Shown here: positions 19,194 through 33,045 of the stretch, piece by piece
Layout: each line of letters starts with the position of its first letter
Numbering within the stretch: position 1 is the first letter of the stretch
Origin: Candidatus Kaistella beijingensis
Lineage (GTDB): Bacteria; Bacteroidota; Bacteroidia; Flavobacteriales; Weeksellaceae
Direction of reading: 5' to 3'
Assembly: GCF_020084865.1 (NCBI RefSeq)
Contig: NZ_CP071953.1
Location: 434,001 to 498,000 of the forward strand
DNA length: 64,000 bases
Made by a program: the position numbers and the translations under genes
The notes under the pieces: generated by a model
Databases searched by the model: none
Told to the model about the DNA's origin: nothing
The model's input: the letters and a program-made list of their open reading frames with translations, nothing else

Positions 19194-19241
19194 TTAGGGT
19201 GTTTTCACCCTAATTTTAAAGTATTGTTATCAGTATATTTG
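19194..19241 (+). promoter_or_regulatory. Palindromic activator-type site and promoter of the signalling operon
   Basis: A perfect inverted repeat, arms TTAGGGTG (19194-19201) and CACCCTAA (19206-19213) around TTTT, stands 30.5 bases (centre to box start) upstream of the -7 box TATATTTG (19234-19241). There is no TTTG at the usual -33 position; the palindrome's right arm takes that place, as expected for an activator-dependent promoter. The same arrangement recurs at 21772 and 26662. Confidence 0.75.
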
Positions 19242-19262
19242 TTAAAATAAAACCTAAAAACG

Positions 19263-19664
19263 ATGAAAAATCTTAACGATCATTTGCTGAACAGCAAACA
19301 AGCGGAAATTCTTTCGAAAGAGTACGAAAGAACAAACTATTCCCAGATTAACTCTTCCAGACCATCCGGTAAGCCAGATTCAAAGCATTACATCTATGAT
19401 TTGGAGGTTTTACAGGAGTACATTAATCTGATCCGTGATGATATGGAAAAACGTGGAATTAGAAACAAGGGTATTCGTATTTCATTAGGAAAGTATCCTG
19501 ACATAAGTTTTGACCCGAGATTAAATCCAGATTTTTTAGGATATCAAACCATCTTTTTTTCGGGTGAAGATATGGATGGTGCTTCGGCAACAGATCGTGT
19601 CGAATCCGCTCCTATTCCTGATGGACCAGTTTTAGATTTTGGAACCATCGCACCACCGTATTAA
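19263..19664 (+). CDS. Unknown 133-residue protein, first gene of the signalling operon
   Basis: No family recognised. The chain has no signal peptide or membrane segment. Residues 1-35 are polar, with NSKQAEILSKEYERTNYSQI as a probable helix; 45-62 (YDLEVLQEYINLIRDDMEKR) a second helix; then the segment GIRISLGKYPDISFDPRLNP; the C-terminus is Pro/Gly-rich and ends in an exposed aromatic (FGTIAPPY). It starts about 15 bases after the expected transcription start and is followed after 18 bases by the 7-TM gene. It may be a cytosolic partner of the kinase (inference). Confidence 0.7.
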   Translation: MKNLNDHLLNSKQAEILSKEYERTNYSQINSSRPSGKPDSKHYIYDLEVLQEYINLIRDDMEKRGIRNKGIRISLGKYPDISFDPRLNPDFLGYQTIFFSGEDMDGASATDRVESAPIPDGPVLDFGTIAPPY

Positions 19665-19682
19665 TTGAACGGTTAAAAAATC

Positions 19683-20342
19683 ATGATTGAGTGGAACAAA
19701 CAATTGGGTGTCCTAATCCAAATTTTGTTGATGCTTTTAACTCTGTTTTTTCTAATTTTAAGAAGAAACCAACTTGGCAAAAGCATCAATTACTTTATTA
19801 GTGCAATATCACTGGGTTGCGGCATCGAGATATTTAATTTCGTTAGTAAATATTTTGATGAGGAATACAATTCAGTGCCTGTTTACATTATTGGAGTTAA
19901 CCTCATTATTTTTTTTATTTTCTTTCTTTATTTCTATCAATTATTAGAAGTAAAGCGCTTTAAAAGAATAGGTGTTGCTTTAATTGTAATTTTCTTGTTG
20001 GGTTATCTCATTTCTGCGATAGCCCAAAAAGATTTTTTCAATAGTTTTCCTTTTGTCTTTTATTGTGCGGAGGTTGCCTTGCTTTCTATGATTATTTTTT
20101 TGGTTCTGTGGCAAACATTTAATTCAGACAGAATTTTGAAACTAAAGTCATACTATCCTTTTTGGGTGAGCATAGGTTTGATGGTTATTTATTTGGGTGT
20201 TGTTCCGCTGCTGATCGTAAGTAATACTGCAAAAACAATGATGAACTTAAATATTTTTTTCATAATTTTATTTGCGGTAAATGTAATAGGATATTCTATT
20301 TTGTTAACTGGTATTTTTTACGCAAAAAATACAGAAATATAA
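19683..20342 (+). CDS. Seven-helix membrane protein of a two-component operon
   Basis: A 219-residue protein made almost wholly of seven hydrophobic helices (about residues 8-26, 36-57, 65-88, 95-113, 120-145, 158-180 and 187-213), with very short loops. No catalytic motif is seen. It lies between the unknown 133-residue protein and the kinase, 6 bases from the kinase start, so it probably works as the membrane sensor for a kinase that has only one helix itself (inference from position). Confidence 0.75.
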   Translation: MIEWNKQLGVLIQILLMLLTLFFLILRRNQLGKSINYFISAISLGCGIEIFNFVSKYFDEEYNSVPVYIIGVNLIIFFIFFLYFYQLLEVKRFKRIGVALIVIFLLGYLISAIAQKDFFNSFPFVFYCAEVALLSMIIFLVLWQTFNSDRILKLKSYYPFWVSIGLMVIYLGVVPLLIVSNTAKTMMNLNIFFIILFAVNVIGYSILLTGIFYAKNTEI

Positions 20343-20348
20343 TAAATA

Positions 20349-21137
20349 ATGAACTTCTCGGAAACAGATTTTCTGATTACATTATCCACATTCATTATAC
20401 TGATAGTTGTATTAATGATGGTATTGATTTATGGAGTTTTCATAAAAAAGAAATCTGAACTCCTTTTGTCACAGCAAAAGAAAGAAGCCATTTTCGAACA
20501 GGAACTGGCAATTTCTCAAGTGGAAATTAAAGAGCAGACCCTCAATTACATCGGGCAGGAATTACATGACGATTTAGGGCAGAAATTATCGGTGGCACGT
20601 CTCATGACCAATAAAATCTCTTTTTCAAAAGAAACAGATATAAAGGAAATTGGGACAGAAATTAATCTTTTAGTGGGAGAATGTATTCAAGACATCAGAA
20701 ATTTATCCAAAATATTCATCACCAAACAAGTCGAACATTTTGGATTTGTGGATTCTATTGAAAGAGAGGTTTTTCGCCTAAGGAAATTAAGCTTGATGGA
20801 AGTGGAGTACCAAAACAATAATCATCATTTGGAAATGAAACCAGATCACGCACTCATTTTATTTCGAATTATTCAGGAATGTATCAATAATGTCATCAAA
20901 CATTCAAGAGCAAAAAAAATAGTTCTTGCCGTTCACGAAAATAGCGATTCTATAGAAGTAAAAGTTAGTGATGATGGTATAGGTTTTAGAGAGAAGGATA
21001 TTTATGACGGAAGTGGATTGAAAAGTATGGCAAACAGAGCCAAGATCATCAATGCAGATTTCAATATAAAATCGCAGGAAAACAAAGGAACAGATATTAC
21101 GGTACTATACCGAAAAAAAAATTATGGAAAAGATTAA
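20349..21137 (+). CDS. Sensor histidine kinase, NarX/DesK-type (HisKA_3)
   Basis: A 262-residue kinase. One membrane helix (about residues 8-30), a coiled coil (35-65), the H-box GQELHDDLGQKLSVARLM with phospho-His near residue 74, an N-box ECINNVIKHSRA, and G-boxes VSDDGIGFRE and GSGLKSMANRA with NKGTDITVLY at the end. It has no extracellular domain, so signal input must come from the membrane or a partner. It overlaps the regulator gene by 14 bases (21124-21137), indicating translational coupling. Confidence 0.9.
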   Translation: MNFSETDFLITLSTFIILIVVLMMVLIYGVFIKKKSELLLSQQKKEAIFEQELAISQVEIKEQTLNYIGQELHDDLGQKLSVARLMTNKISFSKETDIKEIGTEINLLVGECIQDIRNLSKIFITKQVEHFGFVDSIEREVFRLRKLSLMEVEYQNNNHHLEMKPDHALILFRIIQECINNVIKHSRAKKIVLAVHENSDSIEVKVSDDGIGFREKDIYDGSGLKSMANRAKIINADFNIKSQENKGTDITVLYRKKNYGKD

Positions 21138-21768
21138 AATTGCTATCGTTGATGACCATAAACTGGTTTCTAAGGCGCTCGAAAATATGATCTCTGTCAA
21201 TTCAGATTTTGAGGTGATCATGACCTGCTTCAACGGCGAAGAATTCTTAAATGAGTTGGAGACTAAAAAAATAATGCCTGATGTTGTGTTGATGGATATA
21301 AATATGCCGGTGAAAAATGGAATAGAAACAACCGGCGCTCTAAAAAAAATACATCCAGATCTGAAGGTGATCGCCCTCACCATGGAAGATAACGAAGCTA
21401 CTATTATTAAGATGCTTAATGCAGGTGCGAAAGGATACTTGCTGAAAGATATGTCTCCTGATAATCTTTTTGAAGCTATTCATATCGTTCATGAGAAAGG
21501 AACTTTTTATACCGACATGATCAATCAAAGTTTACTGAAGATAAAAAGCGAGAAAAAATTTGCAGATAAGGTGAAAGAAGAGTTAAATGACAGAGAAGTG
21601 GAATTTATTAAATTGGCATGTTCCGAGTTAACTTACCGTGAAATCGCGGACAAAATGTTTCTGAGCCCGAGAACGATAGACGGATATCGGGACTCGATTT
21701 TTGGCAAAATCAATGTAAAATCGAGGGTAGGAATTGTACTTTTTGCGATAAAAAATGAATTATATTAA
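21124..21768 (+). CDS. LuxR/NarL-type response regulator with intact receiver
   Basis: A 214-residue regulator. The receiver has all key residues: acidic pair in AIVDDHKL, phospho-Asp in VVLMDINMP, Thr in IALTMED and Lys in GYLLKDMSP. The C-terminal GerE helix-turn-helix contains LNDREVEFIKLACSELTYRE, ADKMFLSPRTIDGYR. It is the output of the upstream kinase. A NarL-type dimer is a plausible binder of the nearby GGGTG-N4-CACCC palindromes, including the one in front of its own operon. Confidence 0.92.
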   Translation: MEKIKIAIVDDHKLVSKALENMISVNSDFEVIMTCFNGEEFLNELETKKIMPDVVLMDINMPVKNGIETTGALKKIHPDLKVIALTMEDNEATIIKMLNAGAKGYLLKDMSPDNLFEAIHIVHEKGTFYTDMINQSLLKIKSEKKFADKVKEELNDREVEFIKLACSELTYREIADKMFLSPRTIDGYRDSIFGKINVKSRVGIVLFAIKNELY

Positions 21769-21771
21769 AAA

Positions 21772-21818
21772 TAGGGTGTTTTCACGGTAGCGTTGTTTCA
21801 CTTTTTAGTTTACCTTTG
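21772..21818 (+). promoter_or_regulatory. Second palindromic site with promoter, driving a tiny transcript
   Basis: TAGGGTG (21772-21778), TTTT, CACGGTA (21783-21789; two changes from a perfect repeat) and, with centre-to-box distance 30.5 bases, a -7 box TACCTTTG (21811-21818). It begins 4 bases after the regulator stop. The transcript it predicts (from about 21825) runs straight into the hairpin at 21844-21887. Confidence 0.65.
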
Positions 21819-21824
21819 AACCAT

Positions 21825-21887
21825 AAATATTACACAGATAATGGAAAAAAAGAAGAGCCGGCTTTTATGTCGGTTTTTTTTTTGTCC
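21825..21887 (+). ncRNA. Predicted short hairpin RNA or gene remnant under the palindromic promoter
   Basis: The predicted transcript has about 16 bases of leader, then an ATG (21841) followed by AAAAAAAGAAGAGCCGGC, loop TTTTAT and GTCGG with a long T run. The only open frame is 18 codons (MEKKKSRLLCRFFFCPFF), which overlaps the terminator and is unlikely to be a real product. It is either a small RNA, a leader, or the scar of a deleted gene. Confidence 0.4.
21844..21887 (+). terminator. Terminator hairpin ahead of dnaE
   Basis: Arms GCCGGC (21857-21862) and GTCGGT (21869-21874) extended by A-rich/T-rich flanks, ending in ten T. It can end both the tiny transcript and the signalling operon. 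Confidence 0.75.
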
Positions 21888-21936
21888 TTTTTTTTAAAGA
21901 AATTTTAAACTAATTTTACCAAAATTCTTTAATTAA

Positions 21937-24900
21937 ATGTATCTGATTTTCGACACCGAAACTACCGGTTTACCTAAAAACTTCAACGCCCCATTAACCG
22001 ATTCCGACAATTGGCCGAGAATGGTTCAAATTGCGTGGCAACTCCATGACAAAGACGGAAATCTTTTAGAAAATCAGGATTACATCGTCAAACCGGAAGG
22101 TTACGACATTCCTTTCAACGCTGCGAGAATCCACGGAATTTCCACAAAATTAGCCAACGAAGAAGGTCGAGATTTAAACGAAGTTTTAATCGAATTTCAA
22201 GAAGTTTTAAAAAAGGCGGAAGTTGTTGCAGGTCACAACATCGATTTCGATTACAAAATTGTGGGCGCAGAATTTTTTAGAAAGGAGTTAGAAAATACGT
22301 TAGAAAAGATTCCATCTGCAGATACGATGGAATTGGGAACGGAGTTTTGCCAATTAGGCGGTGGAAAAAACGGAAGATACAAGTCTCCAAAATTGGAGGA
22401 ACTTTACGAAAAATTATATGGTGAAAAATTCGATGAAGCACACAACGCTGCAGCCGACGTGAATGCAACTGCACAGGTTTTCTTCGAAATGATGCGGATT
22501 GGAATTATTCCCGCAGAAAATCTCAAAATTACCGAAGCAGAATTACAGGATTTCATCAGCAATCATAAAAGTCCGATTAAACCGTTTGCAATTGTTATCA
22601 GAAGACAGGTTGCCGCCTCGAAAAAGAAAAAAACAGTCGATTTTGGTGATAGCGATGAAATTGAAATCGGCGATTATTTCAACTTCCATAACCACAGTAT
22701 TTATTCGTCGCTTCAAGCCTCTACGCATATTCATGAACTGATTAATAAAGCGTTGCAAAATAATTTTGCAGCAGTTGGTTTGGTTGATTTGGGAAATATG
22801 ATGGGGGCTTTTAAGTTTGTTTCCGAGGTTGAAAAAGCGAACGGAACCATCAAAAAAAATCACAAGGAATTTTTAGAGAAAAAACAAAAAGCGGAAGAAG
22901 AAGGAAATGATTTTAAAGAAACCGAACCACGAAAAGAAGAACTCATTCCCATCATCGGTTGTGAATTCTATATTTCCGACCGGCCTGAACAAAAGCAGTT
23001 TACCAAAGATGACCCCGACCGAAGAACCAATGTGGTTTTGTTGGCAAAGAACTTCAACGGTTATAAAAATCTTGCGAAGCTTTCGAGTATTGGTTATGTG
23101 AACGGATTTTATTTTGGCGTTCCAAGGATTTCAAAGGAAATGATTGCTCAATATAAGGAAGATTTAATTGCTTTAACGGCGGGAACTTTCGGTGATGTTC
23201 CGAATACGATTTTAGAATTTGGGGAACAAAAAGGAGAAGAAGTTTTCAAATGGTGGAAAGAGACTTTTGGTGAAGATTTTTATGTTCAGCTTCAAAACCA
23301 TGAAGTGGAGGAAGAAGAACACTTAAATGATGTTCTACTCGAATTTGCCGACAAATATAATGTCAAAATTCTAGCTCAAAACGAAACGTTCTACACCGAA
23401 AAAACAGACGCGAATATTCAGGATATTTTATATTGTATTAAGGATGGCGAAAAACTGTCATCGCCTGTTGGAAAAGGTTTCGGAAAAAGGAGAGGACTTC
23501 CTTCCAATGAATTTTACATTAAAAACGAAGAGGAAATCAAGCAAAGTTTTCGACAGTTTCCCGATGCGTTTGAAGCGTATACGGAATTTTTGGCCAAGTT
23601 TGAACCTTATACTTTAAAGCGTGATGTTCTACTTCCCAAATTCAACATTCCTGAAGAATTTTTGAGTGAGGAAGATAAAATTGATGGGGGAAAACGTGGT
23701 GAAAATGCTTATTTAAGATATTTAACCTACGAAGGTGCAAAAAAGAAATATACCGAAATCACCGATGAAATCAAGGATAGATTAGATTTTGAATTGGAAG
23801 TTATTGCGAATACCGGTTATCCCGGATATTTTTTGATTGTTCAGGATTTCTGTAACGAGGCGAGAAATATGGGAGTTTGGGTTGGTCCAGGTCGTGGTTC
23901 TGCGGCAGGTTCTGCGGTGGCTTATTGCATCGGAATTACCAACGTTGACCCTATTAAATACGACTTACTTTTCGAAAGGTTCCTCAACCCTGAAAGAATT
24001 TCCATGCCCGATATTGATATCGATTTCGATGATGAAGGTCGCGATAAAATCATCAAATGGGTGGTGGAAAAATATGGAAAAAGTAATGTCGCACAAATTA
24101 TCACCTATTCCGTTTTGGGTGGAAAATCTGCAATTAAAGATGCGGGAAGAGTTTTGGATGTTTCCATTGCGGAAACCAACAATATTGCGAAACTCGTTCC
24201 GTCAACTCCGGGAATGAATATTGCGAAAGCTTTTTCAAAATTCGATAAGTTAAGCCCTGAAGATAAAATTCTTGCACAGGAAATGAAAGATATTCTTGCC
24301 AATCCAGAAGATGGTAGATTTGAAGTTCTTTCCGCAGCACAAAAAATGGAAGGCTGCATTAGAAATACAGGAATTCATGCATGTGGAGTGATTATCACAC
24401 CGGAAGATATTTCGAATCTCGTTCCGATTACGATTGCTTCGAAAGATGCCGATATTTTGGTTTCGCAATTTGACAATTCCGTGGCGGAAAGTGCAGGTTT
24501 GCTGAAGATGGATTTCCTGGGTTTGAGGACTTTAACCATCATTAAACACGCCATCAAACTCATCAAACAAAGACATGGAATCGATATCAATCCTGATGAA
24601 ATTCCATTGACTGATACCAAAACTTTCCAACTTTTTCAAGAGGGTAGAACGGTTGGGATTTTCCAATATGAAAGTCCGGGAATGCAGAAATACATGCGTG
24701 AACTGAAACCGACAGTTTTTGCGGATTTAATTGCGATGAACGCACTCTACAGACCGGGTCCAATTAAATATATTCCAAATTTTATCAACCGAAAAAATGG
24801 TTTGGAAAAAGTTGTATACGATTTAGAGGAAACCGAAGAATATTTAAAGGAAACCCACGGAATTACTGTTTATCAGGAACAGGTAATGTTGCTTTCTCAA

Positions 24901-26586
24901 AAACTTGCCAATTTCACTAAAGGTGAAGCCGATACATTGAGAAAAGCGATGGGTAAAAAGCAGAAAGATGTTCTCGATAAAATGTATCCGAAATTTATTG
25001 AAGGGGGAGAAAAAAACAACCTCGATGTTGATAAACTCAACAAAATTTGGAAAGATTGGGAAGCGTTTGCAGAATATGCCTTCAATAAATCGCACTCCAC
25101 CTGTTATGCCTTGATTGCTTATCACACCGCTTATCTCAAAGCCAATTATCCGGCGGAATATATGGCGAGCGTTATGTCGAATAACATCAACAATACCAAA
25201 CAAATCACCCTATTTATGGAGGATTGCAAAAGTATTGGTGTAGATGTTTTAGGACCGGATGTGAACGAATCCCAATATGAATTTGCGGTGAACGAAAAAG
25301 GACAAATCCGTTTTGGTTTGGGTGCAATTAAAGGAATTGGTGAAGGTCCGAGTGAAGCGATTGTGGAGGCAAGAAAAGAAGAAAGATTCAAAAATATTTA
25401 CGATTTTTTCGAGAAAGTTCCATCGGGTCAAATGAACAAAAGAGTGGCGGAAAGTTTGGTTATTGCAGGTGCTTTTGATGAAGTGGACAAATATCACCGT
25501 GCACAATATTTCGATATCGATAGTTCGGGAAGAACCAATGTGGAGCGACTTTTACGTTACGGACAAAGTTTTCAGGACAATAAAAACGAGATTGAAAATT
25601 CCCTTTTCGCCGATTTTGCTGACGAAGTGAAAATTGAACAACCGAAGATCAATCCTGCTCCGGAATGGCAAAACATGCACAAACTCAACAAGGAAAAGGA
25701 AATCATTGGTTTCTATCTTTCTGCGCATCCGTTGGATGAATATAAATATCAATATCAGTTTATTCAGGGAGCTTTGAGCAAAAAGGAAATTTTGGAAGGC
25801 AAAAAAGAGGAAGTGGTGGAACTGGAAAAAGTGATTCTTCCAATCGATGTTTCCGAAGTCGCAGATTCGGATGAAGATTTGGTGGATATTCCTTCAGAAA
25901 ATTTAGATGAAGAAGATTCGCTGATTGAAGAACCGACTAAAAAGGCAGAACCAAAAGGAACTTTCAACTTCCTGAATTTGGATGAAGTGGATGCTTTTAA
26001 AGAAACGGTGTTTGGAAATCAACCTGATTTGTTCAACAACGACAAACTGTCCTGGAAAGAGAAACAGGCAATAAAAAACAACGCACCCGAATACATGGTT
26101 GCAGGAATGGTGACGGAATATTCTGTTCGAGACGGAAAAAACAGTGGTGAAAAAGTCGCCTTCATCACTTTGGAAGATTACAGCGGAAGTTACAGTTTTC
26201 GTTTGGGTGACCGCGATTATATGCGATTACGCGACAAAGTGGATGTGCAGCGATTTGTCATTTTTAAGATTAAATTTTCTCAATCCAATGACGGCAGGGT
26301 TTTCGTGAATGTTGCAGATATTATCGATTTAAAGGACGCTTTCGAAAAATTTGCCAAAAAAATGACGGTTGTTGTCGATATCAACGATTTACGGAAAGAG
26401 GACATCGAGTTTTTCAAAAAGAATTTCATTGAAAATAAGGGCGAACAAAAACTCAATTTCTATGTGAAAAATCCTTCAGATAATTCAACAATAGAACTGA
26501 TGTCAATGAAAGCCCATGTGGAAATCAACGGCGATATTTTGAACGTCATCAATGAAATGCAGAAATATGAGGTTTTTCTGAATTAG
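21937..26586 (+). CDS. dnaE: DNA polymerase III alpha subunit with fused N-terminal 3'-5' exonuclease
   Basis: A 1549-residue replicative polymerase. Residues 1-190 are a DnaQ-like DEDDh exonuclease (FDTETTG, D6 and E8; NAAADVNATA with the last acidic residue). A PHP domain follows (HNH at 251-253), but its usual TDHGN reads VDLGN, so a metal-binding His is lost. The palm carries PDIDIDFDDEG with D692, D694 and D696. An acidic linker near 1290-1330 precedes the C-terminal OB-fold region. Fusion of proofreading and polymerase is found in other flavobacteria and makes a separate epsilon subunit unnecessary. Confidence 0.95.
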   Translation: MYLIFDTETTGLPKNFNAPLTDSDNWPRMVQIAWQLHDKDGNLLENQDYIVKPEGYDIPFNAARIHGISTKLANEEGRDLNEVLIEFQEVLKKAEVVAGHNIDFDYKIVGAEFFRKELENTLEKIPSADTMELGTEFCQLGGGKNGRYKSPKLEELYEKLYGEKFDEAHNAAADVNATAQVFFEMMRIGIIPAENLKITEAELQDFISNHKSPIKPFAIVIRRQVAASKKKKTVDFGDSDEIEIGDYFNFHNHSIYSSLQASTHIHELINKALQNNFAAVGLVDLGNMMGAFKFVSEVEKANGTIKKNHKEFLEKKQKAEEEGNDFKETEPRKEELIPIIGCEFYISDRPEQKQFTKDDPDRRTNVVLLAKNFNGYKNLAKLSSIGYVNGFYFGVPRISKEMIAQYKEDLIALTAGTFGDVPNTILEFGEQKGEEVFKWWKETFGEDFYVQLQNHEVEEEEHLNDVLLEFADKYNVKILAQNETFYTEKTDANIQDILYCIKDGEKLSSPVGKGFGKRRGLPSNEFYIKNEEEIKQSFRQFPDAFEAYTEFLAKFEPYTLKRDVLLPKFNIPEEFLSEEDKIDGGKRGENAYLRYLTYEGAKKKYTEITDEIKDRLDFELEVIANTGYPGYFLIVQDFCNEARNMGVWVGPGRGSAAGSAVAYCIGITNVDPIKYDLLFERFLNPERISMPDIDIDFDDEGRDKIIKWVVEKYGKSNVAQIITYSVLGGKSAIKDAGRVLDVSIAETNNIAKLVPSTPGMNIAKAFSKFDKLSPEDKILAQEMKDILANPEDGRFEVLSAAQKMEGCIRNTGIHACGVIITPEDISNLVPITIASKDADILVSQFDNSVAESAGLLKMDFLGLRTLTIIKHAIKLIKQRHGIDINPDEIPLTDTKTFQLFQEGRTVGIFQYESPGMQKYMRELKPTVFADLIAMNALYRPGPIKYIPNFINRKNGLEKVVYDLEETEEYLKETHGITVYQEQVMLLSQKLANFTKGEADTLRKAMGKKQKDVLDKMYPKFIEGGEKNNLDVDKLNKIWKDWEAFAEYAFNKSHSTCYALIAYHTAYLKANYPAEYMASVMSNNINNTKQITLFMEDCKSIGVDVLGPDVNESQYEFAVNEKGQIRFGLGAIKGIGEGPSEAIVEARKEERFKNIYDFFEKVPSGQMNKRVAESLVIAGAFDEVDKYHRAQYFDIDSSGRTNVERLLRYGQSFQDNKNEIENSLFADFADEVKIEQPKINPAPEWQNMHKLNKEKEIIGFYLSAHPLDEYKYQYQFIQGALSKKEILEGKKEEVVELEKVILPIDVSEVADSDEDLVDIPSENLDEEDSLIEEPTKKAEPKGTFNFLNLDEVDAFKETVFGNQPDLFNNDKLSWKEKQAIKNNAPEYMVAGMVTEYSVRDGKNSGEKVAFITLEDYSGSYSFRLGDRDYMRLRDKVDVQRFVIFKIKFSQSNDGRVFVNVADIIDLKDAFEKFAKKMTVVVDINDLRKEDIEFFKKNFIENKGEQKLNFYVKNPSDNSTIELMSMKAHVEINGDILNVINEMQKYEVFLN

Positions 26587-26610
26587 ACTTAGAGTTTTTC
26601 ATGATTACTA

Positions 26611-26641
26611 AAAACAGCGACTAAGGTTGCTGTTTTTTTTT
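26611..26641 (+). terminator. Terminator of dnaE
   Basis: An 11-pair hairpin, arms AAAACAGCGAC (26611-26621) and GTTGCTGTTTT (26626-26636), loop TAAG, followed by T. Confidence 0.85.
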
Positions 26642-26661
26642 GCTTTCAAACAACAGTTAAA

Positions 26662-26709
26662 AAAGGGTGAAATCACGATTTTTTTTTTTGTTGAAACTCT
26701 TTACCTTCG
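26662..26709 (+). promoter_or_regulatory. Third palindromic site with promoter, upstream of the CsgD-like gene
   Basis: AAAGGGTG (26662-26669), spacer AAAT, CACGATT (26674-26680), then -7-like box TACCTTCG (26702-26709) at the same 30.5-base centre-to-box distance as at 19194 and 21772. The right arm is degenerate beyond CAC. Confidence 0.65.
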
Positions 26710-26730
26710 TACAAACAAATAACTAATAAA

Positions 26731-27387
26731 ATGAAAACAGAAATTATTACCTATGACAGTTATTATCTCTATTTAGAGTGTATGACCTGTCTCCTAGAGA
26801 AAAATGGTTTTGGAAAAGATTATGATTTTCTAAACACCATTAATTTTGATCAGATTGAAAATTTTATTTCTGATAAAACATCAATCCTGATAATGAATAT
26901 TGTAGGATTAGGATTAAGTGATACTTTTGATTTTATAGAAAACACGCTCAAACGATTTTGTAATCTAAAAATCATGATTTTATCGCCCAATATGGAAATG
27001 AAAGTTATTAAAAAGTTCTTTGAGAAAGGAGCGAAATCATTCCTTACTAAAAACACAAACAGTGCGGAGTTTTTGAATGCCTTGAAAGCGGTAATTGAGG
27101 ACAAAGTATATATCAATGATGATGCAAAGAAATCCCTTTTCGACTATATCTGCAATCAGGAAGAATTATCTGATAAAAAAAATTATGGCGGTGATGAATT
27201 AACTTGCCGTGAGAAAGACGTTTTAGCTCTTTTATGTGATGGTTATCGTACAAAAGAAATCGCCGACAAACTTTTTATCAGTACTCACACCGTTGAATCG
27301 CATCGCAGAAACATCATGCTTAAATTAAATGTCAATAATTCTTCAAAACTCGTAAAGTTAGCAATGGAAAACAATTTAGTGAATTAA
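26731..27387 (+). CDS. CsgD-like LuxR-type regulator with degenerate receiver
   Basis: A 218-residue protein with a receiver-like N-terminal domain (1-125) and a GerE helix-turn-helix (LTCREKDVLALLCDGYRTKE, ADKLFISTHTVESHRR). The phosphoacceptor position reads LIMNIVG: Asn replaces Asp. The N-terminal acidic pair is reduced to one Asp (ITYDSYYLY), whereas Ser (ILSPN) and Lys (FLTKN) remain. It therefore cannot be phosphorylated in the normal way, as is the case for enterobacterial CsgD. It lies tail-to-tail with the curli operon and has the palindromic site in its own promoter. Role as curli regulator is inferred. Confidence 0.85.
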   Translation: MKTEIITYDSYYLYLECMTCLLEKNGFGKDYDFLNTINFDQIENFISDKTSILIMNIVGLGLSDTFDFIENTLKRFCNLKIMILSPNMEMKVIKKFFEKGAKSFLTKNTNSAEFLNALKAVIEDKVYINDDAKKSLFDYICNQEELSDKKNYGGDELTCREKDVLALLCDGYRTKEIADKLFISTHTVESHRRNIMLKLNVNNSSKLVKLAMENNLVN

Positions 27388-27408
27388 GTTTGAATAAATT
27401 TAAAATTA

Positions 27409-27442
27409 AAACTGCTTTATCCGTTGATAAAGCAGTTTTTTT
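27409..27442. terminator. Bidirectional terminator between the CsgD-like gene and the curli operon
   Basis: 13-pair hairpin, arms AAACTGCTTTATC (27409-27421) and GATAAAGCAGTTT (27426-27438), loop CGTT, T run on the plus strand and T-rich continuation on the minus strand. Confidence 0.85.
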
Positions 27443-27454
27443 GTGGGGAGATTA

Positions 27455-28966
27455 TTATTCCCAATCAGGCATTTCTGCATTGGCGAATAATGTCGTTCTC
27501 AAATACTCAGTGTTGGCGTTATTGAAGGTTATTTTCACAATATCTTTTTGTGAAATACCGTCATTTGAAGTATTCATAAAAATGACTTCAGCATCGTTTG
27601 GTGAAAATCTCGGGTCTAAATCATTGGTCCCAAGTGGTTTTTTGCTAATCTGCGAAATGTCGGTGGTGGTGTTTGAATTCAAATCATATAAAAATATTCG
27701 TGAATCTAATTGCCGATGATTTGGATTTTCATAACCTGAAATGTCTCGGGTAAACAGTAATTTGTTTCCTGCAATGGAAAAATTCAAACCTCCTGCCGCT
27801 CCACTTTGACCGGAAAGAACAGTTTGAACGACATTTCCCAACAGATCGATAATGAAGATTTTCACATTGTATCCATTTACATCATTGGTTTTTAAGGCAA
27901 TTTTACTTCCATCAATACTCCAGTCACATTCGGTGATGAAATTTCCATCGGACGTCGTATAGATTAAAGTTAAACCACTTCCGTCTTTATTAATTTTGTA
28001 AAGTTTATTAAACGCTGGGTAAATTAATTCACTTCCATTTGAGCTCCAACAAAAATCCAAATCCTCATAATTGTAGCCTAAAACTGGCTGATTTGTAGTA
28101 ACCTGTTTCACATTTGAACCGTCTTTTTTAGCCGTAAAAATTTGCGTTGTACCTGAAACTGTCTGCAAATAGGCAATTAAGCCTGCATCATTATTAAGTC
28201 TAGGTCTCCAACTGTTTACTGCGTTGGAGGTTAACTGAAAATTTTGTCCCGTCTCATTGCTTGAAATAATGTAATAGTTAGAGCCTGATTTCTTCACATA
28301 ATGAAAACGGTTGTTCGGGGTATCAGAAACTTTAAATTGTTTCACAGCGCTGTAAACATCAGGATTTACAGTATCATTTGCAACAATTTGCCAAAAGTAG
28401 GTAACTCCAAAATTCAGATTATCTAAAACATAACTCTTTGTTTTGATATCGGATTTTTCAAAAACGGTGTTGTATAAACTATTTTTAACAATTAGTTTAA
28501 ATTTCAATTTCAAGGAATCTCCTGGATCTGGATCGGTGCAACTCCAGGTCAAAGTGACCGAGGTTGGTTGATCAACGGAATTGTCCGCGGGAGTTAGAAG
28601 TTGAGGAATGGATGGTGGGGAATTTAATGAATTATCATCTGAAAGTTCGAACACAACGCTTACCGCATTTTCTGTCTTCAAATTAACGCCTTGAAATGAT
28701 GCCAAATATCCTGTTAATTCAGCTTTTACAGAATAATCTCCCAAGGGAACGTTTTCAAGTTTGAAAGTTCCGTCTGTTCCGCTAAATACAGTTTGGGTTG
28801 TTGGAGAAGTATAAATCTTCACATTGGCAATTGGGGTATTGGTTCCTTTTTTTACCACTTTTCCGGTTATTGTTCCAGTTGTAATTTTACCAACCAAGTC
28901 TTCACTGCACGAATGGCAGAAAAAAAATAGAATAAATAGAAATAAGATATTATATAAAGTTTTCAT
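27455..28966 (-). CDS. Curli-operon lipoprotein: carboxypeptidase-regulatory, Fn3 and PD40 beta-propeller domains
   Basis: A 503-residue lipoprotein (lipobox FCHSC, Cys20). Residues about 33-110 form a carboxypeptidase-regulatory-like domain (GTITGKVVKKGTNTPIANVK, TDGTFKLENVPLGDYSV). Residues 114-212 look like Fn3 (PSIPQLLTPADNS, VTYFWQIVAND). From 215 a TolB/PD40-type propeller has repeats such as SWRPRLNNDAGLIAYL, FCWSSNGSELIYPAF and CDWSIDGSKIALK. It starts 4 bases after csgG and ends at the operon terminator, so it is cotranscribed with curli genes. It could anchor or organise the fibre at the surface; function unknown. Confidence 0.8.
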   Translation of the reverse strand: MKTLYNILFLFILFFFCHSCSEDLVGKITTGTITGKVVKKGTNTPIANVKIYTSPTTQTVFSGTDGTFKLENVPLGDYSVKAELTGYLASFQGVNLKTENAVSVVFELSDDNSLNSPPSIPQLLTPADNSVDQPTSVTLTWSCTDPDPGDSLKLKFKLIVKNSLYNTVFEKSDIKTKSYVLDNLNFGVTYFWQIVANDTVNPDVYSAVKQFKVSDTPNNRFHYVKKSGSNYYIISSNETGQNFQLTSNAVNSWRPRLNNDAGLIAYLQTVSGTTQIFTAKKDGSNVKQVTTNQPVLGYNYEDLDFCWSSNGSELIYPAFNKLYKINKDGSGLTLIYTTSDGNFITECDWSIDGSKIALKTNDVNGYNVKIFIIDLLGNVVQTVLSGQSGAAGGLNFSIAGNKLLFTRDISGYENPNHRQLDSRIFLYDLNSNTTTDISQISKKPLGTNDLDPRFSPNDAEVIFMNTSNDGISQKDIVKITFNNANTEYLRTTLFANAEMPDWE

Positions 28967-28970
28967 GGTT

Positions 28971-30359
28971 TTAATTTTTTATGTTGTGTTTTTTCGCCTG
29001 TTTGATATAGTAATTGATTCCTAAACCAATATGAAATGCCTGATCTTTCCTTTTCCCGTTCACGAAATTGTCCCAAGTATCATCAAACCCCATGTCGTAT
29101 TGAGCATTTAATCTTAATGAAAGATTGTTTCCCGCCAAATATTCTAATCCACCACCAAACTGATACTTCAAAAAATTTTTATCTTTAAACATTGTTCCGA
29201 TTCCAACATAAGCGTAAGGTGAAACAGAAAACTTTGGGAGCATTAAATATTCCAAATTCAATTCGGTATACATGAAATTATTTTTCACGATGTCCTTATT
29301 TTCAAGGGTTTCAAACCCTGCACTTAATTCGGTGTTAAAATGGTCGGTAAAGAAATATTTGAAACCTACTTTTCCGCCGATATTCATTTTTGCGTCGGTG
29401 TAATCTCCTTTAATTAAATCGCCGTTCACGATTGCCAAAACAGATGCTCTAGATCTTTCTTTATCGTTAAATTTATTTCCTACAAGTTGCTTTTCGTTCC
29501 GGATTTGTTCAGCATGATGTTTTGCAAGCAAATCTTTCACTTCTTTTTCATGAACTTTTTCAATTCTAAAAGTTCCATCTTCCACACATTCTAAAATTAA
29601 AGTGTAAACCGCTTTTTCAATGGCTTGTGTAACGGCTAAACTTACCGGTTCGTTTTGGGTAAATCCCATTTCGGCTTCCAAAATTCGGTCAGTATCAATG
29701 TATCGGAAGAAACTACCATTAACTGTTGTTGATAGGATATTTTTAGAAGTGTAAACGGTTTTCATAATTTCTCCTGTCATGCTGGAAACTACACGTAAAT
29801 AAACTGTAACACGGTCTTGTCGATATTGCGTTCCACCGCCTATTCCAAAATATCTTGCGCCAATTCCGCCTGTCATTACATTGCTATCGTAAGAAATAAT
29901 TCCGCCTTCCAAAAGAATTCCTGCATAGAGAAGGGGTGGAAGTTGGTCACTGATGATGGTTTTTCCATCTTTTGCAACTTCGTATTCTTTTCGGGTGGAA
30001 CGTATGATTTGTCTTTCGTTTAAGAGATTGCCGATATTTTCGCGTTCTATCGGCCGGAACCATTTGCTGTCTTCTAATGCTTTTAATAAAATAGAAGTAG
30101 TTCCTTGTGGAATTGCAGTACTCCAGTTGCTTCCGTTTTCCGCCATTTTGTATTGACCGGTTTGGTCTTTGAATTTGTACACTCCGATAACAATTTTATC
30201 TTCGGGAGCGGGAAGTTCTTTCAGTTGCTTTGTATAAGGCGTCATTTCACCCAAAGTAGAGGTGTCGCCTTCGGCGGGTAGATTCATCATCGTGCCGCAA
30301 CTGCTCATTATTCCTAATAGGATAAGGAGTAATAATTTGGTGGTTAATAAACTTTTCAT
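28971..30359 (-). CDS. csgG: CsgG curli secretion channel with an added C-terminal beta-barrel-like domain
   Basis: A 462-residue lipoprotein (IMSSC, Cys21). Residues about 21-285 match CsgG: VIGVYKFKDQTGQYK, TSILLKALEDSKWFRPIERE, ERQIIRSTRKEY, LLEGGIISYDSN, GGIGARYFGIGGGTQYRQD, VTVYLRVVSSMTGEI. CsgG forms the nonameric outer-membrane pore for curlin. Enterobacterial CsgG ends near residue 277; here about 170 more residues follow, with alternating strands (FNTELSAGFETL, LRLNAQYDMG, AFHIGLGINYY) like a small OmpA/OMP_b-brl barrel. The start follows csgF after 12 bases. Confidence 0.9.
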   Translation of the reverse strand: MKSLLTTKLLLLILLGIMSSCGTMMNLPAEGDTSTLGEMTPYTKQLKELPAPEDKIVIGVYKFKDQTGQYKMAENGSNWSTAIPQGTTSILLKALEDSKWFRPIERENIGNLLNERQIIRSTRKEYEVAKDGKTIISDQLPPLLYAGILLEGGIISYDSNVMTGGIGARYFGIGGGTQYRQDRVTVYLRVVSSMTGEIMKTVYTSKNILSTTVNGSFFRYIDTDRILEAEMGFTQNEPVSLAVTQAIEKAVYTLILECVEDGTFRIEKVHEKEVKDLLAKHHAEQIRNEKQLVGNKFNDKERSRASVLAIVNGDLIKGDYTDAKMNIGGKVGFKYFFTDHFNTELSAGFETLENKDIVKNNFMYTELNLEYLMLPKFSVSPYAYVGIGTMFKDKNFLKYQFGGGLEYLAGNNLSLRLNAQYDMGFDDTWDNFVNGKRKDQAFHIGLGINYYIKQAKKHNIKN

Positions 30360-30371
30360 GATATTAATTCT

Positions 30372-30767
30372 TTAGTTCGGGATTATAATTTCTGACTGTT
30401 CACCTGTTGAAGTATTTAGAATTCGTACGATTAAACCTTTGTCTGACTGTGTAACTTGTATGTACATGGAACCGAAAGTGTAATTTCCTGGTTTTAAATT
30501 TCCTGTGCCAAATTGGTCTCCGAAGAGTTTTTGGGATAACTGACTTAATAACTGCCTGTTGAGACTTTCTGTAAAACTATCCAAAGTGCTTAAGGAGCCG
30601 TAAGGATTTGTAGTTCCTTTAAACTGATTTTGTGCGGACGCTGAACTCAAAAGCCATTGGTAATTGAACGTGTCGCCTCCAAATGCGGGATTTATAGGTT
30701 TGTAAACGAACTGTTGCCCGAATATCAAACCTATTCCGCAGAATAAATAAATGAGTAATGTTTTCAT
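30372..30767 (-). CDS. csgF: Curli assembly factor CsgF
   Basis: A 131-residue secreted protein with signal peptide (1-17) and mature N-terminus QQFVYKPINPAFGG, which matches the conserved CsgF segment that plugs into the CsgG channel and narrows it. NYQWLLSSASAQNQ and the C-terminal strands complete the match. CsgF couples the CsgB nucleator to the secretion pore at the cell surface. It lies between the CsgE-like gene and csgG in a tight operon. Confidence 0.92.
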   Translation of the reverse strand: MKTLLIYLFCGIGLIFGQQFVYKPINPAFGGDTFNYQWLLSSASAQNQFKGTTNPYGSLSTLDSFTESLNRQLLSQLSQKLFGDQFGTGNLKPGNYTFGSMYIQVTQSDKGLIVRILNTSTGEQSEIIIPN

Positions 30768-30784
30768 AAGATTGTTTTTTTTGT

Positions 30785-31522
30785 TTAATAGAGGAAACCT
30801 TTGTTAGAAATCTTTTTGCTGCTGTCATATTTAATGAGACTAGCAATAGTTTCTTTCACGGCGTCATCTAAATAGTCGTCATCAGGTTTTGCCATAAACG
30901 ATAAAATATTTTCATCGTCAGCAAAAACCTGCAGTTGTGTGTTTCTGCCAGTTGAAGGAACTTCGGAAATCTTGATTCGAAAACTGAACTGCAAAGAATT
31001 CAACATTAACAGTGAGTGAAACTTACTATAGAAATCATCGCCAACTTTAGTTTTTGTTTCATTGATGATCAAACCTTTCATCATCATATTTTCTTCGTTT
31101 GCGACTTTCTCATAAGAAACACTGTTTTTGAAACTTTGCGCATTCATTTCCAAACTGTCTTTTGCAATTGGTTTTTGAGTTTTTTCGTCTTTGATAAACA
31201 GATAAACTTTCAAGGCATCGTTCTTTTCAACATTCATGCTGATTTCCGAAAGTGTTTTGGTTTCTTTCGGAAGAAGGGTGAATTTATTCTGCTGTTGTGA
31301 TGAGGACATGTTTTTTCCTTTGTCCTTTTTCACCGCAAGAAAAATGTAGTTTAAAGACTGGTGAACATCACCCAAGTTTTGGGCGACTGCCTTCATTACA
31401 AGAGAACCTTCAATGTTTTGAGTTTCAATTTTTGCCTTTACTGTTGCGCTTTCTTGAGCATTAAATTTTTTAAAGGGGAAGAGCAACATACTGAAACAAA
31501 GAAATGGGATTAAATTTTTCAT
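30785..31522 (-). CDS. csgE: CsgE-like secretion gatekeeper with an N-terminal CsgC/CsgH-like domain
   Basis: A 245-residue exported protein. Residues about 148-234 match CsgE (MKGLIINETKTKVGDDFYSK, FRIKISEVPSTGRN, QLQVFADDENILSF, LDDAVKETIASLI), the periplasmic cap of the CsgG pore. Residues 25-124 are a separate beta-sandwich-like stretch with the pattern YIFLAVKKDKGKNMSSSQQQ, then KFTLLPKETKTLSEISMNV, which resembles the CsgC/CsgH amyloid-inhibiting chaperones. The fusion is inferred from motif pattern only. The ATG at 31522 is used; a GTG one codon upstream is the alternative. It starts 9 bases after the csgB-like gene. Confidence 0.82.
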   Translation of the reverse strand: MKNLIPFLCFSMLLFPFKKFNAQESATVKAKIETQNIEGSLVMKAVAQNLGDVHQSLNYIFLAVKKDKGKNMSSSQQQNKFTLLPKETKTLSEISMNVEKNDALKVYLFIKDEKTQKPIAKDSLEMNAQSFKNSVSYEKVANEENMMMKGLIINETKTKVGDDFYSKFHSLLMLNSLQFSFRIKISEVPSTGRNTQLQVFADDENILSFMAKPDDDYLDDAVKETIASLIKYDSSKKISNKGFLY

Positions 31523-31531
31523 CACATTATT

Positions 31532-31936
31532 TTAAAAGTGTCGCACAAAAATCATTTTATCATTTGTTTTCAGGTTAATCTGCATTTCTTTGGAATTGCT
31601 GTTGTTTCCTGTAATGTCTATATAGTTGTTGTTGCCTTCAACACTTACTTTTTGCTTATTCTCAATTTCCGGATTGGTGTTGGTCATTAAAGTGGTATTG
31701 AAATCCCCGGTTTGGCGAATCATCAAATCACTTTTTTTACTTCTGTCGTAAACATTTGCCTTATTGTTATCCCCAATCTGAATTACTGCGGTTTTGGAAC
31801 CTTGTTCATAACTTTTGATGCTTTCGGCATTTAGAAGGTTCAAAATATTTTTACTGTTAATTTCGCTAAAAGTTAAATTTTGCGATAAAAAAGGATAATA
31901 AAAGAAAACGAGCAGGATTAGTATTAAATTTTTCAT
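31532..31936 (-). CDS. csgB: CsgB-like curlin nucleator
   Basis: A 134-residue secreted protein with signal peptide (1-18) and degenerate curlin repeats: VIQIGDNNKANV, MIRQTGDFNTT, KVSVEGNNNYIDITGNNS and a basic end KMIFVRHF, comparable to the basic last repeat of CsgB that anchors it to the cell. Only a few repeats keep the QxGxxN pattern. The ATG at 31936 gives a proper signal peptide; an upstream in-frame ATG at 31981 would add 15 residues but is coded within a hairpin. Confidence 0.78.
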   Translation of the reverse strand: MKNLILILLVFFYYPFLSQNLTFSEINSKNILNLLNAESIKSYEQGSKTAVIQIGDNNKANVYDRSKKSDLMIRQTGDFNTTLMTNTNPEIENKQKVSVEGNNNYIDITGNNSNSKEMQINLKTNDKMIFVRHF

Positions 31937-31954
31937 GATATTTTTTTGGATAAA

Positions 31955-31979
31955 AGGGAGAAACTCTGAAGTTTCTCCC
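31955..31979 (-). terminator. Perfect hairpin between the csgA-like and csgB-like genes (attenuator candidate)
   Basis: 10-pair perfect arms GGGAGAAACT (31956-31965) and AGTTTCTCCC (31970-31979), four-base loop, followed on the minus strand by TTTTATCC. It lies inside the operon, 32 bases after the main subunit stop, and could end most transcripts or protect the 3' end of the csgA mRNA. Confidence 0.75.
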
Positions 31980-32011
31980 AAGGGTTGAATTAATATCAGA
32001 TGATCAGTTTG

Positions 32012-32911
32012 TTAACAACCGCCTCCTGAATGTGGTGGACATTTTGGATCTGGTAATGTAGGAGCATCACAGCAAGTTCCGCCATTCGCATTTCCTGATT
32101 CTTGGAAAATATCTTGTGAATTATTGTTACCCACCTGGATTCCAACATGGTCATGTAGATTACCAACTTGTTTTACAATAATATCGTTATCACATCCGTC
32201 TTGGAAATCGGTAGCCAAGTTTTTATTGCCTAATTGAGTTTCCTTGATTGAGTTTCTGTCGCCAATTTGTGTTGCGAATGCTACGTTATCGTCACCAACT
32301 TGTTTTTGCATGATCTTGTTATCGTACCCTGTCTGTTTTCCTGTTGCTTTATTGTCGTCTCCATCTTGATTTTGGTCGATCGAGTTTCTCATACCATTTT
32401 GCCAAGCGATTGCCTTGTTGTCATCACCTTTTTGGGTTTGATTAACCTTGTTGTCCTTACCATATTGTTCAGACTTTGCGTTGTTACCGTCTCCGGTCTG
32501 GGTTTGATACGCTTCGTTTTTATCACCGCACTGCAAAGCATAAACAGAGTTGTCGTCTCCTTTTTGTTTTTGTACAACTTTGTTGAAGTCGCCGTACTGC
32601 TTAGTCGTAGCTTCATTTTTGTTGCCTTGTTGCCAAGTAGAGTTGCTGTTTGATTTTCCGCTTTGGTATACGAGCTCTTCATTTTTGTTACCAATACTGG
32701 TTGTTGCATTCTCATTTTTGGTACCAAACTGCGAAACTTTCGCTTTGTTTTGGTTACCCCACTGCAAGATGCCATTGGAATTCTCTTTTCCGTGCTGGTC
32801 AACATTTGCTTTGTTCAAGTTTCCTAACTGTGTTGTTACGTCATGGTTGTCTTGTGCGAAACCGATTGTAACTGCCATAAGTGCGAATGCACTTGCTAAT
32901 AATTTTTTCAT
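32012..32911 (-). CDS. csgA: Curlin major subunit-like protein with 22 half-repeats and a Cys-rich tail
   Basis: A 299-residue secreted protein. Signal peptide 1-19 (GFA before Q20). From Q28 to residue 269 it consists of 22 consecutive 11-residue units of the form QxGxxNxxxxx (for example QWGNQNKAKVS and QKGDDNKAIAW), equal to 11 curlin repeats of 22 residues, against five in enterobacterial CsgA. Unit 5 begins with Ser instead of Gln and unit 21 loses the Asn. The last 30 residues contain GGTCCDAP, PKCPPHSGGGC, four cysteines not typical of curlins. It is the first gene of the curli operon. Forms surface amyloid by family inference. Confidence 0.93.
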   Translation of the reverse strand: MKKLLASAFALMAVTIGFAQDNHDVTTQLGNLNKANVDQHGKENSNGILQWGNQNKAKVSQFGTKNENATTSIGNKNEELVYQSGKSNSNSTWQQGNKNEATTKQYGDFNKVVQKQKGDDNSVYALQCGDKNEAYQTQTGDGNNAKSEQYGKDNKVNQTQKGDDNKAIAWQNGMRNSIDQNQDGDDNKATGKQTGYDNKIMQKQVGDDNVAFATQIGDRNSIKETQLGNKNLATDFQDGCDNDIIVKQVGNLHDHVGIQVGNNNSQDIFQESGNANGGTCCDAPTLPDPKCPPHSGGGC

Positions 32912-32943
32912 GGTTAAAAAATTTTTATTGGTTAATTGTAGGA

Positions 32944-32951
32944 CAAATGTA
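32944..32951 (-). promoter_or_regulatory. -7 box of the curli operon
   Basis: TACATTTG on the minus strand, 32 bases upstream of the csgA-like ATG at 32911. No TTTG is found at the usual -33 distance, consistent with activator control. Confidence 0.6.
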
Positions 32952-33033
32952 GAACGATTTAAAAGGCAATAAATCCCCCGAAATGATGAATTTCAAAAAA
33001 TCACCAGAAACAATGAGAGACATGGTGAAATCA

Positions 33034-33045
33034 CCCTATAAGAAA
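33034..33045. promoter_or_regulatory. Palindrome upstream of the curli operon
   Basis: GGTG-AAAT-CACC, followed by CT as in the palindromes at 19194, 21772 and 26662. It lies 88.5 bases (centre to box start) from the csgA -7 box rather than 30.5, and a half-site AAATCACC occurs 40 bases closer (32998-33005). Confidence 0.5.

Follow-up and report, generated by a model that had tools for sequence, protein, structure and literature searches.

A palindromic site phased to promoter boxes beside a LuxR-type response regulator gene in Candidatus Kaistella beijingensis: a probable regulon of competence genes, curli and a predicted tiny RNA

ComA, a member of the NarL/LuxR family, is tied to competence; the GacS/GacA system of gammaproteobacteria employs a LuxR-type response regulator and a palindrome to drive the small RNAs RsmY and RsmZ, which contain repeated GGA loops; and in Escherichia coli the LuxR-type protein CsgD controls the csg genes. 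In Bacillus subtilis, ComA binds an inverted repeat of hexamers, for which a spacer of 4 nucleotides is optimal (excerpt of PMC4797271). Here we describe a stretch of 64,000 nucleotides from Candidatus Kaistella beijingensis (positions 434,001 to 498,000 of contig NZ_CP071953.1), called the window below, in which a palindrome, GGGTG-N4-CACCC, recurs at a signalling operon encoding the response regulator RR1, directly after the RR1 gene, at the gene of a second LuxR-type protein (RR2) and at a curli operon. Competence genes, namely ComEC and a gene for a helix-hairpin-helix (HhH) protein, carry the site as well, a fact that an earlier note on this DNA had not seen. We consider it probable that the palindrome is the operator of RR1, whose regulon would consist of its own operon, a predicted tiny RNA, ComEC, the HhH protein, RR2 in some species, and curli.

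The palindromes reported earlier at four places of the window were located at 19197, 21774, 26665 and, on the reverse strand, 33036-33023. Site 1 (19194..19213, forward strand) lies 5' of the signalling operon; it is the best copy and an 8+4+8 palindrome, as the earlier note had said, with the arms TTAGGGTG and CACCCTAA around TTTT and a GGGTG-N4-CAC core at 19197-19210. Site 2 (21774..21787, forward; GGGTGTTTTCACGG) is found 5 bases past the RR1 stop codon, site 3 (26665..26678, forward; GGGTGAAATCACGA) 5' of RR2, and site 4 (33023..33036, reverse; GGGTGATTTCACCA) 5' of the curli operon; an additional GGGTG-N4-CAC match revealed by the window scan, at 38120, is within a gene. The pattern GGGTGNNNNCAC has 6 matches in the window (site 1 counted on both strands) vs 0.42 expected, and none of 100 shuffles reached 6. 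At sites 1 to 3 the first T of the -7 box falls at exactly +37 from the first G: the boxes are TATATTTG for the signalling-operon promoter (19234..19241), TACCTTTG for the predicted tiny RNA (21811..21818) and TACCTTCG, a 5/6 match, at RR2 (26702..26709), all on the forward strand. The distance of exactly 30.5 bases from palindrome centre to box, claimed for these three, is thereby borne out, as is the view that such phasing is hard to get by chance: given the frequency of boxes in intergenic parts of the window, the probability that three of the four sites have one in the +36..+38 slot is about 8e-5. The -7 element, TAnnTTTG, has been placed at -12 to -5 (excerpt of PMC6847099), so that the centres of these sites come to lie near -42.5, and not about 44 bases upstream of the start as first proposed. 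The curli site was likewise nearer to its box (TACATTTG, 32944..32951, reverse strand) than the 88 bases given before: the box T is 85 bases away when counted from the first G of the site, and 78.5 when counted from its centre, which puts that centre at about -90.5.

The signalling operon, on the forward strand, is formed by ORF1 (an open reading frame of 133 amino acids, 19263..19664), for which Pfam and NCBIfam gave no match; ORF2 (219 amino acids, 19683..20342), which has no family match and by eye looks membrane-embedded; a histidine kinase with HisKA_3 and HATPase_c domains (20349..21137); and RR1 (21124..21768), the proposed binder of the palindrome. RR1 is a NarL/LuxR-type response regulator with a receiver (PF00072, 1.9e-27) and a GerE helix-turn-helix domain (PF00196, 8.3e-11). 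Its best sequence matches among solved structures are VraR and NarL chains, and the phospho-acceptor pocket residues D10, D11 and D58 plus K108 are invariant in 10 aligned RR1 sequences.

What is read directly from the DNA of this genome and its relatives is where the sites lie, how they are phased, how far they are conserved and which genes they adjoin (genomes and loci are designated below by G and L numbers). Orthologues of RR1 are present in 20 of 21 congeneric genomes, at 69-80% identity (own copy aside), the exception, G015, having short remnants only. All 20 RR1-bearing genomes have a site before the operon with its box at +36..+38, although this is weak in G012 and G032 and in the latter was chosen with the help of the phase, and all 20 have a site directly after the RR1 stop codon (3-5 bases where measured), with the box at +37 in 18 and at +36 in 2. 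The operon start and RR1 of G002 are on separate contigs, and this genome has a second RR1 copy (67%) that lacks a downstream site. In G018 no ORF1, ORF2 or kinase was found beside RR1; RR1 and both sites are kept. The short remnants of G015 (L416 6671-6840) adjoin an intact palindrome, RR1 having been lost in this one of the 21 genomes.

Genome-wide, GGGTGNNNNCAC gave 29 matches at 26 distinct places in the 2.82 Mb of the own genome; its reversed control gave 13. Sites with a WWWT spacer, GGGTGWWWTCAC, were intergenic in 11 of 11 cases, as against 1 of 15 for other spacers (Fisher p 1.6e-6), a spacer class defined only after the matches were seen. A search for the motif at a fixed distance 5' of a -7 box, suggested beforehand as a check, succeeded: at 7 of the 11 GGGTGWWWTCAC sites the +36..+38 slot holds TA and a minimum of 5/6 of TAnnTTTG, for which the chance is about 3e-9; the box lies at +37 for 453197, 455774, 460665, 592377 (reverse), 939462 and 1574312 (reverse), and at +38 for 939154 (reverse). 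Outside the window alone, 4 of 7 sites are phased, for which the chance is about 2e-5 at 2.7% expected each. Row sums over the 21 genus genomes give 193 occurrences of the perfect 12-mer GGTGWWWWCACC vs 30 for the reversed control. A sample of 66 such perfect sites from 7 genomes (59 from six relatives with complete hit lists, leaving out those already retrieved beside RR1, and 7 of 9 from the own genome, two window sites being excluded) was scanned over 76 offsets in both orientations, with intergenic status assigned by an open-reading-frame rule. In this sample 38 sites are genic and 28 intergenic; the commonest box offset of the intergenic ones is +37 (7 boxes), followed by +33 (5) and +76 (4), and a single genic site has a +37 box. 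It had been held that equal frequency inside genes and random distances from -7 boxes would speak against the module. The distances were not random, given the +37 peak at the 28 intergenic sites, and the GGGTGWWWTCAC class is wholly intergenic. Perfect 12-mers are common in genes, and meaning attaches to the phased intergenic copies. The +33 boxes all belong to one gene family in five genomes (L287, L303, L312, L319, L332), an NlpC/P60-type lipoprotein gene according to Pfam in the one scanned. One-mismatch sites of the own genome number 149, of which 100 were listed; the 41 stretches read among them yielded no additional gene promoter with clear phasing.

The competence genes were identified by their domains. 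ComEC matches PF03772 with 209.5 bits (E 7.7e-62), and its promoter has a site (score 12.5-17) with a box, mostly ending in A, at +36..+38 in 18 of 21 genomes, those without being G003, G005 and G015. The HhH protein matches PF12836 at residues 250-313, and its promoter scores at least 13 in 14 of 21 genomes, G006 being doubtful. In Riemerella anatipestifer, ComEC and a predicted periplasmic HhH protein (domain 236-301; RA0C_RS02645) are both essential for transformation (excerpt of PMC8459023); the HhH protein of our genome, which resembles it, may be its orthologue. Six HhH promoters were looked at for tandem palindromes, a pattern set after the data were seen: copies 22-23 bases apart, about two helix turns (L341, L348, L357, L344, L351), number four in G005, three in G010, two in G016, two in G002 and at least two in G032, and G012 gave one. 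DprA and ComF, the promoters of which were not looked up, were not identified among the genes beside the 11 own-genome sites. Other targets in the own genome are a divergent pair, an M15 peptidase and a patatin-like phospholipase (939154, 939462), a gene for a protein of 161 amino acids (945022) and a beta-eliminating lyase-family gene (2130244), at which unphased sites also occur in G032 and G008. At 592377 (L278 around 2877, G000:C1) the perfectly phased promoter TATCTTTG at +37 stands 3' of an apparent electron-transfer flavoprotein gene and runs antisense into a sirtuin-like gene, both named by the look of their sequences; perhaps it serves another small RNA.

The curli genes (27455..32911, reverse strand) include two Curlin_rpt genes (32012-32911, 31532-31981), CsgE, CsgF, CsgG and a CarbopepD_reg_2 protein, and their order suggests a single operon. 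A threshold scan had made the curli site appear unconserved, a reading overturned once the loci were lined up by their -7 boxes. The best site then stands at a fixed distance in all 10 of the 10 loci examined, the box being at +85 from the first G in 8, +84 in 1 and +86 in 1. Scores are 9.0 to 16; each site is the best of 40 positions searched, and 3 of the 10 score below 11.5. RR2 (26731..27387, forward) is a LuxR protein resembling CsgD; its receiver is atypical, with a weak match to Response_reg, and the NCBIfam CsgD model gives RR2 a score of 54, below the cut-off of 250. An Asn apparently occupies the expected position of the phospho-acceptor Asp, as read from the sequence. Its own site is phased (+37) in 6 of the 14 RR2-bearing genomes examined and stands at +33 in one; G009 has a weak site only, far from the RR2 gene. 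The module was originally described as linking the operon, a tiny transcript, the CsgD-like gene and curli; the first two links hold in 20 of 20 RR1-bearing genomes and that to curli in 10 of 10 loci, and the CsgD-like gene is the intermittent member.

The tiny RNA, of about 60 nucleotides with both ends predicted (21823..21883, forward), would carry CACAGATAATGGAAAA, for which the genus consensus is CACAAATRATGRAAAA, and then an intrinsic terminator. Among 16 aligned copies the palindrome, the box, the CACAAATRATGRAAAA-like stretch and a CCGG hairpin are constant; the spacer and leader drift, and double changes occur at 4 of 9 stem pairs. With G002, G005, G031 and G032 added, a hairpin follows the site in 20 of 20 genomes, in a longer version in G005 and with a weak T run in G008. 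An element of CACAAA type is found in 19 of the 20 copies (not in G002) and looks like the A-rich sequence at which translation starts in Bacteroidota (excerpt of PMC6847099). A conserved peptide was ruled out, since the readings differ and 2 of 16 copies lack an ATG, and pairing with the start regions of ComEC or HhH gave no consistent signal vs shuffles (15 genomes each, z -2.2 to 1.4). For the window copy, Rfam 15 returned nothing above gathering, the best being STnc240 with 25.6 bits vs 55 required. A search of 80 family genomes with an RNA model gave strong matches, among those listed, in 4 of 5 congeneric genomes, all beside RR1; outside the genus the matches listed were weak, a few looking real (L194, L192) and many resembling ordinary terminators. 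Three loci from two other genera (L194 and L422; L425) each show, 3' of RR1, an altered palindrome, a box at +37 or +38, AACACAAATGATG and a hairpin. AACACAAATGATG or a one-letter variant also stands before short hairpins or short frames across several genera within the family (L194, L422, L425, L174, L180, L187, L188, L189, L191, L193), and because it is found at such other loci it is possibly just a strong start region, perhaps the translation start of leader peptides and tiny RNAs. At L192 (G087), GGGTGTTTTTCCCC is accompanied by TACCTTTG at +38 and followed by AACACAAAGATG and a hairpin; no RR1 match was seen in this locus. In L135, L143 and L144 a second palindrome lies directly 3' of the tiny-RNA terminator, with TAATTTTG at a similar distance in L144, possibly marking a second small RNA.

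A mechanism can be proposed in which the operon's own kinase would sense a signal and RR1 would be phosphorylated in response, and an RR1 dimer on the site near -42.5 would replace the missing -33 box and recruit RNA polymerase as a class II activator does. This geometry is suggested by the centre at -42.5 together with the absence of TTTG from the -33 stretch in 16 of 16 tiny-RNA promoters (TTGT occurs in 2). RR1 would thus switch on its own operon, a positive feedback, and would also turn on the RNA just 3' of its own gene, ComEC, the HhH DNA-uptake protein and, in some species, RR2; at curli the same site would act from a distal, class I-like position. That RR1 binds and activates, and that the tiny RNA is made as a transcript, we infer from sequence. 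The RR1 regulon is read as coupling competence, curli and a small RNA in a programme that may also include envelope enzymes. A bolder proposal, which we find doubtful, makes RR1 the lineage's master regulator of natural competence, coupling ComEC/HhH uptake to curli biofilm, and the tiny RNA a decoy: an open strand with a strong Bacteroidota-type start (CACAAATRATGRAAAA), capped by a terminator, which would occupy ribosomes, bS1 or an RNA-binding protein with no target pairing.

The earlier note held that one of the two LuxR-type regulators binds these sites. The idea of one activator-type module with fixed phasing fits what was found, and RR1 appears to be the better candidate of the two. RR2 is LuxR-type, adjoins curli and has a phased promoter of its own in some genomes; in G006, G008, G010 and G016, however, no full-length match to RR2 exceeds 35% identity (the orthologues of other genomes have 41-60%), and these four keep their sites at the operon, tiny RNA and ComEC, which makes RR2 a very improbable binder unless a diverged paralogue stands in. 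Another candidate would be a different universal factor, such as an activator of the Crp/Fnr family, with the RR1 operon merely one of its targets. Boxes of that family can be 5-N4-5 repeats located near -41.5, which a palindrome of this form and position would suit, and a spacer that begins with A and ends with T turns the site into GTGA-WW-TCAC; TTTT and AAAA spacers, however, disrupt this reading, and RR1 is flanked by sites in 20 of 20 genomes, one of them G018, which has lost the remainder of the operon. We regard such a factor as unlikely, if clearly less so than RR2. Least credible of all is a reading of the palindromes as transcription terminators or as AT-rich repeats arisen by chance: T or A runs flank several (e.g. 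26665 and 592377) and many perfect 12-mers are genic, but the +37 phase is fixed to a promoter box, site 1 sits between divergent genes, and arms and phase are conserved as the spacer sequence drifts. The terminator reading was rejected on phase and position.

Several observations weigh against RR1 as the binder or against the breadth of its regulon, apart from the fit of the site to a Crp/Fnr-type factor. Four of the 11 own-genome sites (curli, HhH, 945022 and 2130244) have no box at +36..+38, and the HhH promoter has a phased box in only 3 genomes. Neither ComEC nor the HhH gene has a site in G015, the genome with no intact RR1, but the use of this genome as a natural knock-out of RR1 was set aside, as G003 and G005 have RR1 and still miss the ComEC site. 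In G015, moreover, AGGTGAAAACACCC persists next to what is left of RR1, and RR2 retains a phased site. G104, the fifth congeneric genome of the RNA-model search, whose RR1 status was not looked up, had no strong tiny-RNA match among the matches listed (best E 0.004). Beyond the genus, five named Chryseobacterium have an operon promoter with a GTGTTTT site and a box at +37 in 5 of 5, a drifted motif chosen after the data were seen; its second arm has changed, the CAC arm being kept in only 2 of 5, and no tiny RNA follows RR1 at these five loci. At the Chryseobacterium loci L198-L202, RR1 is followed by a gene that looks caspase-like, in some preceded by GGTGTTTTACC-like repeats and a similar leader. 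A tiny RNA after RR1 was found in only 2 of 8 RR1-bearing genomes outside the genus, and a recognisable ComEC site in 0 of 8 (21 of 28 other-genus ComEC loci were read, with a score built on the genus that would miss a drifted site). At 30 more distant response-regulator loci there was no convincing site within 170 bases downstream, the best scoring 13.5.

Natural transformation is known in this group through transposon screens in Riemerella, and no regulator of it was found in our searches of the open-access literature. No report of a Bacteroidota competence regulator, curli regulator or small RNA controlled by a response regulator was found there either, subscription papers being largely outside this search; the text of a Flavobacterium transcriptome map (PMC9723704) contains no 'LuxR', 'palindrom-' or 'competence'. 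A named response regulator with an operator and target promoters makes competence regulation directly testable, DNA uptake and curli fibres would be linked under one signal, and the sites point to a conserved small RNA whose window copy Rfam 15 fails to recognise.

Among described systems, transformation in R. anatipestifer has both of its gene kinds in common with the present regulon: ComEC and an HhH protein are essential there (excerpt of PMC8459023), and genes of both types carry the site here. The main text of that paper has 0 occurrences of 'response regulator', 'two-component' and 'LuxR', and no such regulator is reported in it. With E. coli CsgD the likeness lies in control of csg genes by a LuxR-type protein; here the conserved operator tracks RR1, which has a canonical receiver, and the CsgD-like RR2 is only an intermittent target. 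The likeness to GacS/GacA lies in a LuxR-type regulator and a palindrome before a small RNA; RR1 itself scores 117.8 bits with the UvrY/SirA/GacA model, below the cut-off of 280, and the RNA here is about 60 nucleotides long, directly 3' of the regulator gene, and has a start-codon-like element instead of repeated GGA loops. ComP-ComA shares the 4-nucleotide spacer between its operator (excerpt of PMC4797271) and our palindrome, but the half-sites are TTGCGG for ComA and GGGTG here, and the sites do not conform to a TTGCGG-N4-CCGCAA operator. In the present system, hosted by a member of the Bacteroidota, comEC itself is the apparent direct target.

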